The translations under genes were made by a program, and so were the position numbers. A DNA stretch of 37,713 nucleotides from Polaromonas sp. (GTDB taxonomy: Bacteria > Pseudomonadota > Gammaproteobacteria > Burkholderiales > Burkholderiaceae_C): positions 1-37,713 of the forward strand of contig PNNC01000106.1 in NCBI GenBank assembly GCA_013824015.1, read 5' to 3'. The notes under the pieces were generated by a model that worked only from the letters and a program-made list of their open reading frames with translations, did not search any database and was not told where the DNA came from. This document shows positions 28,881 to 37,713 of this stretch, piece by piece. Within the stretch, counting starts at the first letter, position 1, and the number at the start of each line of letters is the position of its first letter.

Positions 28881-30122
28881 ATGAAATCCGGACTGAGCTT
28901 TCTGATCGCCGCCCGGCGTTGCGAAATCAACGACCTCGAGCAACTCACACGCACAAGCGCGCTGGTGAACGTGGTCGGGCGCCTGGTGCACGCGCTGCAA
29001 AAGGAACGCGGTATCTCCAACGTCTTCCTGAGCTCCCGCGGTGCCCGTTTTGCCGGGCAGTTGCCAGCGCAGGTCAAGGAGTGCCGCCAGGTCGAGGCCG
29101 AGCTGCGCGCCAGCTTCGACCACCTGGACACCGATGCCGGTCACCTGAGCAATGGTGCCAGGCTGTTCAGCCGGATTGCCTTTGTGCTGCACGAACTGGA
29201 CGCCCTGCCGGACTTGCGCCAGCGCATTGCCGACCAGGCCGTCGCGGCCGCCGATGCCACGGCCGCTTTTGTCAAACTGATCACCGGCTTGCTGGCCGTG
29301 GTGTTTGAAGCGGCCGACAGCGCGACCAACCCCGAAATCTCGCGCCTGCTGGTGGCCATGTTCAATTTCATGCAGGGCAAGGAATTTGCCGGCCAGGAGC
29401 GCGCTTTTGGCGCGGCCAGCTTTGCCTCGGGACAAACCGACAGCCAGAGCCAGCAGCAGTGGCTGCACCTGATCCAGCAGCAGGAACGCTGTGTCCAGGT
29501 GTTCAGCGACTTTTCCACCCCGGCGCTGCGTGAACGCTGGCAGAACAGCCAGGCTGCCGCCACCCTGGCCGAGCTGGAACGGCTGCGTCGCATCGCCTGC
29601 TCGGCGGCCGCCGGGGCGCTGGACCCCAACCTGAGCCAGAGCTGGTTCGACTGCTGCACGCGCCGCATCGACGCCATGAAAACCGTCGAAGACCAGCTGG
29701 CCGCCGACCTGCTGCTGCTGTGCGACCAGAAGATCGCGCAGGCGCGCGCCGAACTGCAAAACCACCAGATGATTCTGGCGGCCCTGACCAGCCAGACCGC
29801 TCCGGCGGGCGGCGCCGAGCGCCTGAACCCGGCGGTGATGCCGTACGGACCGCACCTGGACCGCTCCATCCTCGAGCTGGTGCAGGACCAGGCCAGCCGC
29901 CTGCAGGTCATGAGTGACGAACTCGAGACAGCACGCGCTTCGCTCAACGAGAGAAAAATCGTCGAGCGCGCGAAAGGCCTGCTGATGGCGCACCGCAAGC
30001 TCAGCGAGGAAGAGGCTTACAAAATGCTGCGCCAGACCGCGATGAGCCAGAACCGCCGGCTGACCGACGTCGCCGAAGCGGTGCTGGCGATGGCCGACTA
30101 CCTGGCTGCCGGCACGCCCTGA
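28881..30122 (+). CDS. nasR: Nitrate/nitrite-responsive antiterminator, NIT plus ANTAR domains (NasR-like)
   Basis: This ~413-aa regulator has an N-terminal all-helical NIT sensor domain and a C-terminal ANTAR RNA-binding domain. The NIT part includes [18 protein letters not shown], the characteristic nitrate/nitrite-sensing helix with its arginine, and [16 protein letters not shown]. The ANTAR part includes [29 protein letters not shown] followed by [11 protein letters not shown] (key parts). In Klebsiella NasR, nitrate or nitrite binding lets the ANTAR domain bind leader RNA and prevent termination ahead of nas genes. Starts at 28842 (MAFRLL) or 28881 (MKSGLS) are both possible; I prefer 28881 because family members begin shortly before the FLxxARRxEI helix. 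It directly precedes the nrt control region, and two fitting RNA targets are seen downstream. Confidence 0.93.
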
Positions 30123-30285: not shown

Positions 30286-30301
30286 TGGCACGGTTGCTGC
30301 T
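30286..30301 (+). promoter_or_regulatory. Sigma-54 promoter of the nrt operon
   Basis: TGGCACG-GTTG-CTGCT matches the -24/-12 consensus TGGCACG-N4-TTGCW at 11 of 12 positions, with the essential GG and GC correctly 10 bp apart. Transcription should start about 12 bp past the -12 GC, near 30312. It lies in the 348-bp gap between the NasR-like gene and nrtA, which holds only control elements. Confidence 0.75.
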
Positions 30302-30315
30302 TTAGTTCTCCCATG

Positions 30316-30376
30316 AATGGGCCAACGGCGGTCCGTTTCAAAAGTCAGCAACGACTTGCCCCGGACAACGGCGTCC
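30316..30376 (+). ncRNA. ANTAR-target leader RNA (dual hexaloop) of nrtA
   Basis: P1 is GGGCC-AACGGC-GGTCC (30319-30334, one G-U pair), extendable outward to AAT/GTT (30316-30337). P2 is GGAC-AACGGC-GTCC (30363-30376). Both loops are the same hexamer, AACGGC, with A at position 1 and G at position 4, as known for ANTAR-binding RNAs. The 28-nt linker contains a third hairpin, AAGTC-AGCAAC-GACTT (30342-30357). The P2 loop and right stem are also the left arm of the terminator, so P2 and the terminator are mutually exclusive. Binding of the NasR-like protein is inferred. Confidence 0.8.
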
Positions 30377-30416
30377 ATTTCCAGCTTGCTTGTGCAGGTC
30401 CGAAATGGACGCCGTT
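30367..30416 (+). terminator. Intrinsic terminator (attenuator) in the nrtA leader
   Basis: AACGGCGTCCATTTC (30367-30381) and GAAATGGACGCCGTT (30402-30416) form a perfect 15-bp stem followed by TTCGTTTT. It lies 54 bp before the nrtA ATG, with no gene before it to end. Its left arm overlaps ANTAR hairpin P2 by 10 bases, and an upstream near-copy (30324-30339) can also pair with the right arm. Confidence 0.85.
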
Positions 30417-30470
30417 TTCGTTTTCCGCTCTGGTTCCTGTTCTTCTGTTTTGTCACTCAAGGAGTTCCAC

Positions 30471-33599: not shown

Positions 33600-34715
33600 A
33601 TGGCCCTGATTGTGGTGATCGACGACGACGAGGCGATCCGCACCCTGATCGCCGCCGCCCTGCGCTTCGAGGGCTACGAGGTGCTGGAAGCCGAAGACGG
33701 GGCCGAGGGCCTCGCCATGATCCGCGACAACCGGCCGGACCTGGTCGTCAGCGACGTCAACATGCCGGTGATGGACGGTTTTGCGATGTGCCAGGCCTTG
33801 CGCACCGAACCTGCCATCCAGGCCACACCGGTGATCCTGCTGACCTCGCTGCAGGAGCGTGCCCATGTGCGTGCCGGCATGACCAGCGGCGCCGACGACT
33901 GCCTGACCAAACCCATCGACTTTGACGACCTGCTGGCGGCCACCGCCACCCAGCTCAACAAACAGCTGATGCGCCAGTCGGTGCAGGACAGCGCGGTCGG
34001 CTCCGCCATCGACGAAGCCTTGCGGGCGCAGGAAAAAAAGCTGAGCCAGTTGTACGAGAAACGCCTGCTGGCCGAGCTTGCGGACAAATGGCCGACCGCG
34101 CAATCGCTGGTGACCGACCAGAAGTTCTCCAGCGCCAGCGTGCTGTTTGTGGACGTGGTGAATTTCCCGATGTTGTCCGAGAAGTTGTCCAGCACAGAGC
34201 TCAGCGAGGTGGTGCGCCAGTTCTACAAAAACGCCGGCGACACCCTGTACCTGTTCGGCGCCTTCGACATGCAATTTGTCGGGGAAGGCCTGCTGGCCGT
34301 GTTTGTCGACAGCACCGATACCGACACCGTCAACCACGGGCTGCGCGCGGTCCGGGCCGCGCTCGGCCTGATCGATTCGGCGCAGCGCGTTCAGGTGTTC
34401 CTGCAAACCCATTTTGCGGGGCGCGCGCTGCCGCGGTTTGAAGTCTGCGTCGCGCTCAACAGCGGCGCGGTCACGCTGACCCGTCTGGAAGACCCGCTGT
34501 GGGGCAAGCCGCAAACCCTGCCGGTGGGTGATGCCGTCAGCACCACCCTGCTGCTGCAAAAACAGGCGACGCAGGCGGACTGGAAGATCGCCGCCAGCGC
34601 GTCCATGCTGCGGGCCGTGGCGGGTGCGCTGAAAACCGGCAGGCGCAAACGGTTTTCCCTGCCGGGCCGCAGCAGTGCCATGGATGCCGCCGAGGTGCTG
34701 GGCATCTCCAGCTAG
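33600..34715 (+). CDS. Response regulator with degenerate adenylate/guanylate cyclase-like output domain
   Basis: This 371-aa protein has an N-terminal receiver domain (VVIDDDEA acidic pocket, phosphoacceptor D52 in VVSDVNMPVMDG, switch lysine in CLTKPID). A linker coiled coil (residues ~140-165, EEKKLSQLYEKRL-like) follows, then a class III nucleotidyl cyclase homology domain. The first metal aspartate is kept (D185 in LFVDVVNF), but the second is glutamate (E229 in FVGEGLLAVF), and the Asn/Arg substrate-orienting pair is replaced (GDAVSTTLLLQ, S314). It is probably catalytically weak or inactive, perhaps a phosphorylation-controlled binding module. No histidine kinase is adjacent. It sits between the nrt genes and a MHYT sensor. 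Confidence 0.85.
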   Translation: MALIVVIDDDEAIRTLIAAALRFEGYEVLEAEDGAEGLAMIRDNRPDLVVSDVNMPVMDGFAMCQALRTEPAIQATPVILLTSLQERAHVRAGMTSGADDCLTKPIDFDDLLAATATQLNKQLMRQSVQDSAVGSAIDEALRAQEKKLSQLYEKRLLAELADKWPTAQSLVTDQKFSSASVLFVDVVNFPMLSEKLSSTELSEVVRQFYKNAGDTLYLFGAFDMQFVGEGLLAVFVDSTDTDTVNHGLRAVRAALGLIDSAQRVQVFLQTHFAGRALPRFEVCVALNSGAVTLTRLEDPLWGKPQTLPVGDAVSTTLLLQKQATQADWKIAASASMLRAVAGALKTGRRKRFSLPGRSSAMDAAEVLGISS

Positions 34716-34989
34716 GGCGCCGTCGCTCCGCTATCGTTTCAGGAGCACGCCAGGCCCTGCCGACAAGGGCCACCACCCGATTCACGTCCTGCCATCAAGG
34801 CTTTTTCGAAAGCGGGCGGAAGCCGGGGCTGCGTGCTCGCGCCAACAACGCACTTGTTTGGTGCGATTTCAGTCGCTGGGCCAGCCCCGGGCCGGCAAAA
34901 AACACAGCGATTCGAGGGCTTTTGCAGTCGCACGCGGAATTGGTAACAAAACGATACACTCGCGCTGTCATTAATTCATAAGTACTCAT

Positions 34990-35766
34990 ATGAACCCTAT
35001 AGTTCTAAGCAACTACCAGCCTGCCTACATCGCGATTTCCTTTCTGATCGCAGTCGCCGGTTCTTTTGTGGCCATCATGGCCGCCAACCGGATCAAGCAG
35101 CCGGACGGCAGTTTCAGCACCGCCAACACCCTGACCGCCGGCCTGGCGCTGGGCGGCATCGGCGTGTGGGCCATGCACTTTGTTGGCATGCTCGCGCTCA
35201 AGCTGGACCTGGCCAACAGCTACGCGATGGTCGAAACCGGTGTATCGCTGGTCGCCGCCATCCTGGCCGCCTCGCTCGCTTTGGGCTTTGTCGCGCGCGC
35301 ACCGGAGCGCCTGGGACGGATGCTGGTGGCCGGCGCCCTGCTCGGCATGAGCGTGGTGGTGATGCACTACCTGGGCATGTACGGCATGAAATTCGGCGGC
35401 TATATCCAGTGGGACTATGCCCTGATCGCCGCGTCCATCGCGATTGCCATCGTCGCCGCGACCGCGGCCCTCTGGCTGGCCTTCAACACCGCGACCCTGG
35501 CCACACGTTTCGGCGCAGCCCTGGTCATGGGGGTGGCCGTCTGCGCGATGCACTACACCGGCATGGCGGCTGCGGAATTTGTCTGCACCACGGCCAACCG
35601 CAGCGCGATCCCCCAGGGATTTGGCTACGTGAGCTCGTTCAGCATTTCATCGCTGGTGATCATCGCTGCCTTGTCGATGGGCTTTCTGATCGCCATGAGC
35701 ATGCTGTTCCAGCCGAACGCCGCAGCAGCCAGGCAAAAGCTGCAGGCCAAACCGTCACGCAGCTAA
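34990..35766 (+). CDS. Stand-alone MHYT-domain membrane sensor protein
   Basis: This 258-aa integral membrane protein has about seven helices and three MHYT-type motifs at the ends of helices: MHFVGM (residue 62), MHYLGM (125) and MHYTGM (187). The Met/His residues are proposed in the family to bind copper and sense oxygen, CO or NO. Unlike most family members it has no GGDEF, EAL or other output domain, only a short basic tail. No ribosome site is obvious before the ATG at 34990. The preceding 274-bp gap shows no gene. Position between nrt and nirB suggests gas or redox sensing linked to nitrate use (inference). Confidence 0.9.
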   Translation: MNPIVLSNYQPAYIAISFLIAVAGSFVAIMAANRIKQPDGSFSTANTLTAGLALGGIGVWAMHFVGMLALKLDLANSYAMVETGVSLVAAILAASLALGFVARAPERLGRMLVAGALLGMSVVVMHYLGMYGMKFGGYIQWDYALIAASIAIAIVAATAALWLAFNTATLATRFGAALVMGVAVCAMHYTGMAAAEFVCTTANRSAIPQGFGYVSSFSISSLVIIAALSMGFLIAMSMLFQPNAAAARQKLQAKPSRS

Positions 35767-35891
35767 GCCGACAGCGCACCGCCGGCCGCGCCGCAAACGC
35801 CTTTTTGGTGCGCGGCGCAGCGCTTGCACCACCGGTCCCGAAACGCGCAGCGCGGCAGGCAGGCCTGTCCTGCCAGCGCTGACAAGCAACA

Positions 35892-35985: not shown

Positions 35986-36001
35986 TGGCACAGGTTTTGC
36001 A
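35986..36001 (+). promoter_or_regulatory. Sigma-54 promoter of nirB
   Basis: TGGCACA-GGTT-TTGCA matches TGGCACG-N4-TTGCW at 11 of 12 positions, with GG and GC 10 bp apart. Transcription should start near 36012, immediately before the first leader hairpin. NtrC-like half-sites TGGTGC (35806-35811) and TGCACCA (35825-35831) lie far upstream but do not form a full site. Confidence 0.75.
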
Positions 36002-36012
36002 TGAGTACTTGC

Positions 36013-36074
36013 GGGCGCAACGCCGCGCCCACCCCGGTCTCCACACCGCGGGTTCTGCGCATAACGACGTGTGC
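36013..36074 (+). ncRNA. ANTAR-target leader RNA (dual hexaloop) of nirB
   Basis: P1 is GGGCGC-AACGCC-GCGCCC (36013-36030), a perfect 6-bp stem. P2 is GCGCAT-AACGAC-GTGTGC (36057-36074), a 6-bp stem with two G-U pairs. Both hexaloops have A1 and G4 and begin AACG, like the nrtA leader loops. The 26-nt linker holds a hairpin CGGT-CTCCAC-ACCG (36035-36048). Layout, spacing and position right at the predicted transcript start match the nrtA leader, which supports a shared ANTAR regulator. Confidence 0.75.
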
Positions 36075-36115
36075 ATTGGTGTCCCTCAGCACCGGCAACA
36101 GCCGGGTCCCTGTTC

Positions 36116-36153
36116 AACAGGAGAGAGCATCATGGTTTTTACCTCCTGTTTTT
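36116..36153 (+). terminator. Attenuator/SD-masking hairpin before nirB
   Basis: AACAGGAG (36116-36123) and CTCCTGTT (36143-36150) form an 8-bp stem, and TTTTT ends at 36153, so it can act as an intrinsic terminator. Its left arm contains the AGGAG ribosome site of the 28-codon ORF. The competing local hairpin CCTG-TTCAA-CAGG (36109-36121) uses the same left arm. Confidence 0.6.
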
Positions 36154-36218
36154 CGAAAGCCAGCATGGCTTCGGCGCCTGCGCCGGCAACACCGCATCCC
36201 ATTGGAGTGGCACGATGA
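36132..36218 (+). CDS. 28-codon leader ORF overlapping the nirB start
   Basis: A small ORF starts at ATG 36132 behind AGGAG (36119-36123, 8-bp spacing) and ends TGA at 36216-36218, sharing ATGA with the nirB ATG at 36215. The peptide begins MVFTSCFSKA and ends HPIGVAR; it has no recognisable family, is Ala/Pro/Ser rich, and has a single cysteine. The strong ribosome site and the exact overlap suggest it is translated to couple ribosomes into nirB. A hairpin can mask its ribosome site. It could instead be fortuitous; nirB also has its own TGGAG. Confidence 0.5.
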   Translation: MVFTSCFSKASMASAPAPATPHPIGVAR

Positions 36219-37713
36219 AAAAATCCAGACTGGTCATGGTCGGCAACGGCATGGCAGGTGTACGCACACTTGAGGAACTGCTCAAGGTCGCGCCCGATCT
36301 TTACGACATCACCGTTTTCGGCGCCGAGCCGCACCCCAACTACAACCGCATCCTGCTGTCGCCGGTGCTGGCCGGCGAGCAGACGCTGGACGAGATTGTG
36401 CTCAACAGCTGGGACTGGTACACCGACAACCACATCACGCTGCATGCCGGCAAGAAGGTCGTTGAAGTGGACCGCATCAAGCGCATCGTGCGCGCCGAAG
36501 ACGGCACCGAAGAGGAGTACGACCGCCTGCTGATGTGCACCGGCTCCAACCCCTTCATGCTGCCGGTGCCCGGCAAGGACCTGCTGGGCGTGATCGCCTA
36601 CCGCGACATCGCCGACACCAACGCGATGATTGACGCGGCGACAAAGTACAAAAAGGCCGTGGTGATCGGCGGCGGCCTGCTCGGGCTGGAGGCCGCCAAC
36701 GGCCTGATGCTGCGCGGCATGGAGGTCAGCGTGGTGCATGTGATGCCCACGCTGATGGAGCGCCAGCTCGACAGCGTGGCCGGCAAGCTGCTGCAGAAGT
36801 CGCTGGAGAGCCGCGGCCTGAAGTTCCTGATGGGCGCGCAGACCCAGGAACTCGTGGGCGGCCCGGACGGGCGTGTGACCGCCATCAAATTCAAGGACGG
36901 CAGCGAAGTGGCCGCTGACCTTGTGGTCATGGCGGTCGGCATACGCCCGAACACCGAACTGGCCGAAAAAATGCGCCTGCACTGCAACAAGGGCATCGTC
37001 GTCAACGACACCATGCAGACGGTCACCGACGCGCGTATCTACTCGGTCGGCGAATGTGCGGCGCACCGCGGCATCGCCTACGGTCTGGTCGCGCCGCTGT
37101 TCGAGCAGGCCAAGGTGGCGGCCAACCACCTGGCGCAATTCGGCATTGGCCGCTACACCGGCTCGCTGACCTCGACCAAGCTCAAGGTCACCGGCATCGA
37201 CCTGTTTTCCGCCGGTGAATTCCTGGGCGGCGAAGGCACCGAAGAAATTGTCATGAGCGACCCTTTCGGCGGCGTCTACAAGAAGCTGGTGATCAAGGAC
37301 GACAAGCTGATCGGTGCCTGCCTCTACGGCGACACCGTCGACGGCTCGTATTACTTCAAGCTGCTGCGCGACGGCCGAAGTGTCGGCGACATTCGCGACC
37401 GCCTGATGTTCGGCGAGTCCAACATCGGCGATGCCGGCCACGAAGGCCACAACAAGGCGGCCGCCATGCCCGACGAGGCCGAGGTCTGCGGCTGTAACGG
37501 CGTCAGCAAGGGAGCGATCTGCAAGGCCATCAAGGAAAAGGGCCTGTTCACCCTCGACGAGGTGCGCAAACACACCAAGGCCAGCGCCTCCTGCGGATCC
37601 TGCACCGGCCTGGTCGAACAGATTTTGATGGCCACCGCCGGCGGCGACTACTCGGCCACGCCCAAGCTCAAGGCCATGTGCGGCTGCACCGACCATGGCC
37701 ACCAGGCCGTGCG
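36215..37713 (+). CDS. nirB: Nitrite reductase [NAD(P)H] large subunit (3' end outside window)
   Basis: About 499 codons are present, open to the right edge. The product reduces nitrite to ammonium in the cytoplasm with NAD(P)H. Seen are the N-terminal FAD site MVGNGMAGVRTLEEL, the NAD(P) site VVIGGGLLGLEAANGL, and the FAD-associated YSVGECAAHRG. A BFD-like [2Fe-2S] domain with CGCNGVSKGAIC and CGSCTGLVEQ follows. The siroheme/[4Fe-4S] half should follow beyond the window. ATG 36215 has TGGAG 6-7 bp upstream and overlaps the leader ORF stop. With the nrt genes and the NasR-like regulator it fits assimilatory nitrate use; a nitrate reductase gene is expected to the right. Confidence 0.95.
   Translation, partial: MKKSRLVMVGNGMAGVRTLEELLKVAPDLYDITVFGAEPHPNYNRILLSPVLAGEQTLDEIVLNSWDWYTDNHITLHAGKKVVEVDRIKRIVRAEDGTEEEYDRLLMCTGSNPFMLPVPGKDLLGVIAYRDIADTNAMIDAATKYKKAVVIGGGLLGLEAANGLMLRGMEVSVVHVMPTLMERQLDSVAGKLLQKSLESRGLKFLMGAQTQELVGGPDGRVTAIKFKDGSEVAADLVVMAVGIRPNTELAEKMRLHCNKGIVVNDTMQTVTDARIYSVGECAAHRGIAYGLVAPLFEQAKVAANHLAQFGIGRYTGSLTSTKLKVTGIDLFSAGEFLGGEGTEEIVMSDPFGGVYKKLVIKDDKLIGACLYGDTVDGSYYFKLLRDGRSVGDIRDRLMFGESNIGDAGHEGHNKAAAMPDEAEVCGCNGVSKGAICKAIKEKGLFTLDEVRKHTKASASCGSCTGLVEQILMATAGGDYSATPKLKAMCGCTDHGHQAV

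Follow-up and report, generated by a model that had tools for sequence, protein, structure and literature searches.

A conserved ANTAR-type dual-hexaloop leader upstream of nirB in Polaromonas and its relatives, with a possible translational output

Leaders read by ANTAR proteins are known mostly as terminator switches; the published accounts are cited here from excerpts. Nitrite reductase and nitrate transporters figure among the ANTAR-RNA genes of Ramesh et al. (2012), who also described regulons with several such RNAs, suggested translation control for some of them, and let the linker between the two hairpins, P1 and P2, vary in length in their search model (PMC3369931). ANTAR leaders upstream of nirB are already known: a review describes the Pseudomonas nirBD leader NalA as transcribed from a sigma-54 promoter and as controlling a terminator through NasS-NasT, with NasT as the protein that reads it (PMC12830290). 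In Klebsiella oxytoca, read-through of the nasF terminator rises from 5% to 52% with nitrate (PMC7496416), and a further paper mentions the protein concerned, NasR, only in general terms in the excerpt cited (PMC8467165). The eut leaders of E. faecalis, read by EutV, have linkers of 5-12 nt; a length of 14 nt already strongly reduces induction (PMC3369931), and an extension by 20 nt abolishes EutV antitermination (PMC8934654). Translational repression by ANTAR proteins has been reported in mycobacteria and proposed for other actinobacteria, where the ribosome-binding site or the start codon overlaps the dual stem-loop and binding represses (PMC8164766).

We analysed a stretch of 37,713 nucleotides from Polaromonas sp., hereafter the window, which holds one candidate ANTAR leader before nrtA, of a kind that we call type A, and another before nirB, of a kind that we call type B. 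The relevant features, all on the plus strand, are listed below.

28881-30122, plus strand: NIT-ANTAR protein beside nrtA (Pfam; start placed where similarity to relatives begins)
30286-30421, plus strand: nrtA leader, type A, with a sigma-54 promoter, P1 (30319-30334) and P2 (30363-30376) overlapping a terminator
35986-36001, plus strand: sigma-54 (-24/-12) promoter TGGCACAGGTTTTGCA, from pattern reading of the sequence
36013-36030, plus strand: P1 hairpin GGGCGC-AACGCC-GCGCCC, 6 bp, hexaloop AACGCC (A1, G4)
36031-36053, plus strand: inner hairpin within the P1-P2 linker, from predicted folds
36056-36075, plus strand: P2 hairpin TGCGCAU-AACGAC-GUGUGCA, 7 bp, hexaloop AACGAC (A1, G4)
36077-36087, plus strand: anti-initiator segment, predicted partner 36123-36132 (end of the Shine-Dalgarno sequence, spacer and first base of the ATG)
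36092-36105, plus strand: hairpin CCGGC-AACA-GCCGG inside the anti-initiator helix, from predicted folds
36117-36153, plus strand: terminator-like hairpin ACAGGAG...CTCCTGT followed by Ts, also an alternative pairing partner of the Shine-Dalgarno sequence (-12.5 kcal/mol)
36119-36123, plus strand: Shine-Dalgarno sequence AGGAG of the leader ORF
36132-36218, plus strand: 28-codon leader ORF MVFTSCFSKASMASAPAPATPHPIGVAR, whose stop TGA overlaps the nirB ATG (ATGA)
36215-37711, plus strand: 5' part of nirB, ATG at 36215, leaving the window (Pfam Pyr_redox_2, Rubredoxin_C, Fer2_BFD)

How does the nirB leader compare with the described systems? Its likeness to NalA would lie in an ANTAR-read leader directly before nirB, a sigma-54 promoter under NtrC and a response to nitrate (PMC12830290), but it presents no conserved terminator, goes with a NIT-ANTAR protein, and has a fixed downstream start codon and a leader ORF apparently coupled to nirB. 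The type-A nirB leaders of the host's family are closer to NalA than type B is. With nasF and NasR it shares a NIT-ANTAR protein (Pfam), nitrate assimilation and two A1/G4 hexaloop hairpins (PMC7496416); unlike nasF, it has a long linker with an inner hairpin and no conserved terminator. The dual hexaloop is also that of the eut leaders, whereas type-B linkers measure 21-33 nt and contain an inner hairpin. Control of ribosome access has likewise been proposed for the actinobacterial RNAs (PMC8164766), but here the start is some 56 nt further downstream and is preceded by a separate segment. In a literature search of limited depth, we came across neither the type-B class nor an ANTAR-coupled leader ORF nor a PilJ-ANTAR protein.

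The preliminary description of the nrtA leader (sigma-54 promoter, AACGGC twice, inner hairpin, terminator overlapping P2) proved accurate; the plain minimum free energy (MFE) fold of its P1-P2 stretch has other pairings for P1 and P2. Types A and B have the sigma-54 promoter and the dual hexaloop in common, and nirB type B shares the inner hairpin with the nrtA leaders of the window and of L217. They differ in that P2 forms part of the terminator in type A and not in type B. The type-A P2 pattern GGAC-RANGGC-GTCC is itself a piece of the terminator, and in its strict form occurs in 108 of 399 genomes of the family. Cross-reading of our two surveys puts both types together in 20 of 43 type-B genomes, and a second leader before nirB as such is not unusual. 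By eye, a hairpin in a long P1-P2 linker is seen in the nrtA leaders of the window (30335-30362) and L217, the linkers of type-A nirB leaders looking shorter.

The preliminary description had placed two A1/G4 hexaloops right behind a sigma-54 promoter upstream of nirB, and this is borne out by the sequence, the predicted folds and the family model described below. Transcription from such promoters usually starts 11-12 nt from the -12 element, and would thus begin at or just before P1. P1, the inner hairpin and P2 are all found in the MFE fold of six window transcript lengths, with pairing probabilities of at least 0.93. The window stretch at the nirB leader is strongly structured (z -2.63), and the 76-nt motif alone is not unusually stable (z -1.19). 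A search of the whole window against Rfam at gathering score returned tRNA only and no leader. The element presents two tandem stem-loops exceeding the 3 bp expected of ANTAR target RNAs (6 and 7 bp, with covariation), the A1/G4 hexaloops AACGCC and AACGAC, and one ANTAR protein in the genome, the NIT-ANTAR protein. Among the usual but not strictly defining features, it has a nitrogen-metabolism gene downstream (nirB) and lacks a short linker. This linker folds into the hairpin reported earlier but counts 25 nt rather than 26. That the nirB leader is an ANTAR-type dual-hexaloop RNA, and a probable ANTAR target, is well supported by these features.

Sequence comparison places the nirB leader in a conserved class, type B, distinct in kind from the nrtA leader. 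We found nirB in 112 of 150 genomes of the host's family and inspected 110 upstream regions, one per genome; where a sigma-54 pattern lay 95-330 nt before nirB, the two kinds of ANTAR leader were assigned visually. At least 21 of the 110 carry an ANTAR-like leader: 11 type A, 8 type B and 2 with P1 only. In the remaining upstream regions that we viewed, nirB either has a simple sigma-54 promoter close by or follows another gene. A scan demanding A1 and contiguous stems missed P1 loops with G1. The eight type-B leaders, the window included, were aligned (96.2% of cells paired) and served as the seed of a first covariance model, R1. At E<=0.01 and with 12 candidates scored per genome, R1 matched 54 of 399 family genomes in 26 of 141 genera, the weakest matches being partly false. 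Across the host's order it matched 3 of 200 genomes, two of them in the host's own family. The family survey yielded 56 places; 50 loci were examined and 44 kept as type B, leaving out L179 (contig end) and L189, L190, L192, L194 and L195 (no promoter pattern, no gene). By our tally the 44 loci span 17 genera, many loci being congeneric, so that counts over them are not independent.

A second model, R2, was built from 41 loci excluding the window, G109 and G097; it is not fully independent of the window, since R1 served both to collect and to align its rows. On the window genome, R2 scores positions 36010-36079 at 73.2 bits (E 6e-9), the runner-up among 150 scored candidates reaching 26.2, and R1 gives 74.2 bits against 23.2 (also 150 candidates). 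The window genome, in an assembly that is 88.8% complete, thus holds one clear match to the class. Elsewhere R2 scores L224 at 66.4, L220 at 64.6, G109 at 63.6 and G097 at 63.1 bits. In the 41-locus alignment, 9 of 13 stem pairs show double changes (51 cells), a result reached by 0 of 500 shuffles, although fitting the alignment to the R1 structure favours it; slid structures are only 25-52% paired. Among 40 distinct relatives, P1 is paired in 98.7% of cells, with double changes at 4 of 6 pairs, and P2 in 94.3%, with double changes at 5 of 7. The hexaloop stems, whose possible lack of conservation had been raised as a ground for doubt, are therefore kept with covariation. The R2 score and the covariation of P1 and P2 argue that the ANTAR RNA is more than a chance resemblance.

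Other features of the class are equally regular. The hexaloop G4 is invariant (44/44 in P1, 41/41 in P2), and position 1 is A or G in proportions of 24:20 in P1 and 31:10 in P2. A promoter TGG[CA]N8TGC stands 23-28 nt before the motif start in all 44 loci, with 0.003 expected per 6-nt window. The linkers fold at a mean of -10.0 versus -6.7 for mononucleotide shuffles (median rank 0.13, 44 loci). Downstream of 43 of the 44 loci, tblastn identifies nirB or nasA, the gene of an MFS nitrate transporter; the first gene is nasA in 22 and nirB in 21, and L178 has a transporter-like ORF. The nirB of the window finds its nearest named counterpart in Polaromonas (97% over 200 residues), and R2 matches 21 of the 80 loci from named records.

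What is the output of this leader? In the classical scheme, the hairpin at 36117-36153 would terminate transcription and an ANTAR protein bound at P1-P2 would let the polymerase pass, with no stem shared between P2 and the terminator. The characterised ANTAR systems act on transcription attenuation (PMC3369931), the Pseudomonas nirBD leader among them (PMC12830290), and the window does have a hairpin followed by Ts, whose Shine-Dalgarno/CTCCTGT pairing reaches 0.6 in long transcripts. This hairpin is nonetheless weak, no better than shuffles (-12.5 kcal/mol, z -0.59), and its 3' arm is changed without compensation in the two closest relatives, L220 and L224, although hardly anything else differs between P2 and the ATG; the homologous stretches reach -7.5 and -7.3 kcal/mol, respectively. 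Values of -9.8 to -5.2 are found in L222, L229, L250 and L255. A terminator scan found nothing at 36117-36153, but its loop rule also misses the nrtA terminator, which makes the scan uninformative; a sigma-70 scan found nothing at either leader. No TTTT lies between P2 and the start codon in 25 of the 26 type-B loci with a fixed-spacing start (see below), while TTTT follows P2 in 10 of 11 type-A leaders. We consider classical antitermination unlikely for the window. Some nirB-type type-B leaders may carry a terminator, since TTTT occurs within 100 nt after P2 in 12 of 44 loci, the window among them. The preliminary description was thus right that coupling should differ from that of the nrtA leader, but the terminator that it proposed does not overlap P2 and is not conserved; the conserved features point to translation initiation instead.

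The nirB leader element extends beyond P2 up to nirB, with a Shine-Dalgarno sequence and the 28-codon ORF. In 26 of 44 type-B loci (12 of 17 genera by our tally), a Shine-Dalgarno sequence and start codon stand 47-63 nt after P2 (mean 56.7, sd 4.1); the same search at 45-65 nt in shuffled sequences yields a mean of 0.74 and a maximum of 3 loci, and 18 of the 44 loci have no such start. This start belongs to nasA, to nirB (in G109 and G097) or to a short ORF. P2 is directly followed by a segment, here called the anti-initiator, that is complementary to the Shine-Dalgarno sequence plus start; with up to 3 mismatches allowed, it fits the consensus AUGUGCCUCC in 31 of the 44 loci, versus 6.9% of shuffles, the consensus being derived from the very loci in which it was counted. 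Predicted pairing between the anti-initiator and the start region is 0.37, compared with 0.17 when the segment is shuffled (mean rank 0.20, 27 loci, L171 being shifted by hand); the window values are 0.51 and 0.24 (rank 0.10). In the window, the predicted helix encloses two hairpins and appears in the MFE folds of transcripts ending at 36140, 36150, 36156 and 36170. By eye, the CCGG-type hairpin is also present in L159, L173, L220 and L224. We also weighed a helix between the 5' arm of P2 and the anti-initiator but discarded it on visual inspection, the P2 arms varying while the anti-initiator is constant.

Several results weigh on the other side. The helix is absent from the MFE folds of window transcripts ending at 36217 or 36260, and beyond 36150 the Shine-Dalgarno sequence mostly pairs with the downstream CTCCTGT (0.47-0.61) or within a local hairpin (about 0.3). 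We found no lineage-specific covariation of the helix: partners swapped between genera give -11.07, versus -11.16 for true partners (L147 and L148, both negative in the pairing prediction, were not in this test). In G109 and G097, nirB itself sits at the fixed position and anti-initiator pairing is 0.00. The upstream leader lowers mean Shine-Dalgarno accessibility over 25 loci (0.145 versus 0.229), but not in the window (0.185 versus 0.021), L159 or L173. P2 is misparsed in L171, and perhaps in L161, L170 and L185, in the Shine-Dalgarno/start counts and in the swap and accessibility tests. Control of the ribosome site is thus suggested by the fixed spacing and the anti-initiator in the class, and more weakly in the window taken alone.

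In Polaromonas L220 and L224, a leader ORF of identical length overlaps nirB by the same ATGA, and in L149, L173, L191 and L229 other peptides also end at -1 (ATGA overlap). The stop lies at +6 in L188, +21 in L154, +22 in L152 and +8 in L250, and at +42 to +46 in L255 and in L159 and L222, which are near-copies of each other. Of eight nirB loci that carry such an ORF, seven have the stop at -1 to +22 of nirB (P 6e-5 under a lenient shuffle preserving ORF length and frame); the ATGA overlap of the window ORF alone is common (0.40) in length-keeping shuffles. Where a short ORF is found at nasA loci (seven cases), it ends 15-21 nt ahead of the next ATG in six and 46 nt ahead of it in one. Codon differences number 1 synonymous and 10 non-synonymous between the window and L220, and 0 and 9 between the window and L224. 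A function of the peptide itself is unsupported, the peptide being unconserved while frame, length and overlap are kept in L220 and L224; this pattern fits coupling rather than peptide function. Only in genus g53 may the peptide itself be conserved: before nasA in L176, L183, L184 and L187, ORFs of 17-18 codons share the start MR.LS or MRRTLS.

Could the same arrangement serve Rho polarity? Rho would then act on the untranslated leader and be blocked either by the ANTAR protein itself or by translation of the short ORF under ANTAR control. Leader ORFs do end close to the next gene, and C-rich stretches follow P2 in L050 and L085 (by eye); the strong structure of the window stretch (z -2.63) speaks against it, and we hold it to be very unlikely.

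We favour translation-level gating of nirB through the ANTAR leader and a coupled leader ORF, to which we give about even belief. The sigma-54 transcript would start at or just before P1 and fold into P1, inner hairpin and P2, to which an ANTAR protein that senses nitrate or nitrite would bind, in this genome presumably NIT-ANTAR. The segment at 36077-36087 would fold back onto the Shine-Dalgarno-to-start region of the short ORF and help to hide its start; binding next to this segment would alter the exposure of that start, and ribosomes finishing the 28 codons would stop at the ATGA and re-initiate on nirB. The promoter, the P1/P2 covariation, the P2-to-start spacing, the anti-initiator and the ORF end in the closest relatives are drawn from comparison of sequences, whereas the anti-initiator helix is a prediction. 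From the conserved spacing and anti-initiator and the unconserved terminator we infer control at translation, with coupling and ANTAR binding as probable parts of it. The equal scores of swapped partners, the missing helix in G109 and G097 and the other Shine-Dalgarno partners in long RNA lower our belief in gating for the window. There is also no visible way for the ANTAR protein to open the anti-initiator helix, which counts against this explanation. As to sign, activation would be expected by analogy with NasR and NasT; repression is what has been reported for actinobacterial translational ANTAR RNAs.

Which protein reads the leader? NIT-ANTAR is the only ANTAR gene found in the window genome. 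The L220 and L224 genomes have one ANTAR match each, a NIT-ANTAR 85-86% identical to that of the window, beside nrtA. The gene order in G109 and G097 is NIT-ANTAR, type-A P2, nrt genes, type B, nirB; in the genus-mate G099 it is NIT-ANTAR, type A, nrtABC, nirB, with no type B. In the window genome, G109, G097 and G099, our search for the REC-ANTAR-PilJ protein described below hits only the ANTAR part of NIT-ANTAR. Five genomes from three genera (window, L220, L224, G109, G097) thus combine a lone NIT-ANTAR with a type-B nirB leader, which, the leader being intact, argues that NIT-ANTAR reads it and supports the earlier proposal of one sensor for two leaders. Retention of type B is not special to NIT-ANTAR: five other genomes that keep it (G129, G091, G330, G103, G276) yielded a NasT-like REC-ANTAR only, two of these leaders scoring low (41.0 and 35.9 bits).

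A further partner is common in the class. At 35 of the 44 type-B loci the upstream side carries a divergent ANTAR gene, whose matched part starts 350-631 nt away. As a candidate NIT-ANTAR it was rejected, its reading frame being that of a REC-ANTAR-PilJ protein; it is REC-ANTAR-PilJ-like in all 7 loci inspected, and Pfam gives one such protein 74.6 bits for PilJ, 66.8 for ANTAR and 24.6 for REC (below the cut-off). The full-length protein is found in 12 of 23 genomes tested, adjoins type B and nirB in G395 and G200, and was not found in the window genome. The leader could therefore be a relic that came with REC-ANTAR-PilJ and nasA, both since lost from the locus, and that no protein reads any more; by eye, the leader ORF of genus g92 in L152 and L154 resembles a decayed nasA start. 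Yet the R2 scores of the window, L224, L220, G109 and G097 are no worse than those of many genomes with the partner, and we see no second sigma-54 promoter between P2 and nirB in the window, unlike in several relatives (by eye). We judge the relic explanation quite unlikely. Second sigma-54-like promoters are seen by eye between P2 and nirB in L026, L030, L152, L159 and L173, where the type-B leader may act on read-through only, or be a separate short RNA.

Returning to translational gating, one NIT-ANTAR may act at two levels, antitermination at nrtABC and translation of the leader ORF before nirB, with type B as a proteobacterial ANTAR translation switch; this wider proposal is tentative and, in our estimate, falls somewhat short of an even chance. 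One protein would then appear to serve two RNAs with the same recognition and a different output within a single pathway. If so, the cell could set nitrate uptake and nitrite removal separately, and the ANTAR site would be a portable module. A genome that has both leaders and a single NIT-ANTAR offers a clean test pair, with one protein and two predicted levels of control.

The REC-ANTAR-PilJ protein represents an ANTAR architecture with a NarX/PilJ-type sensor. In L159 (96-1376, minus strand) it comprises, in 427 amino acids, a REC-like part, an ANTAR domain and two PilJ stretches, and it is likewise found upstream of other type-B loci; its PilJ stretches carry RxGxxRMLSQR motifs that we take to be P-box-like. 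The limited literature search found no paper that mentions PilJ and ANTAR domains together. At 33600-35766 the window encodes a cyclase-like response regulator (weak domain match) and an MHYT protein, which separate nrtC from the nirB leader; the same response regulator is found upstream of the leader in L220 and L224. Finally, the half sites GGTGCG and TGCACC at 35796-35835, about 160-190 nt upstream of the nirB promoter, are presumably NtrC-like, and similar sites are seen by eye in some relatives.
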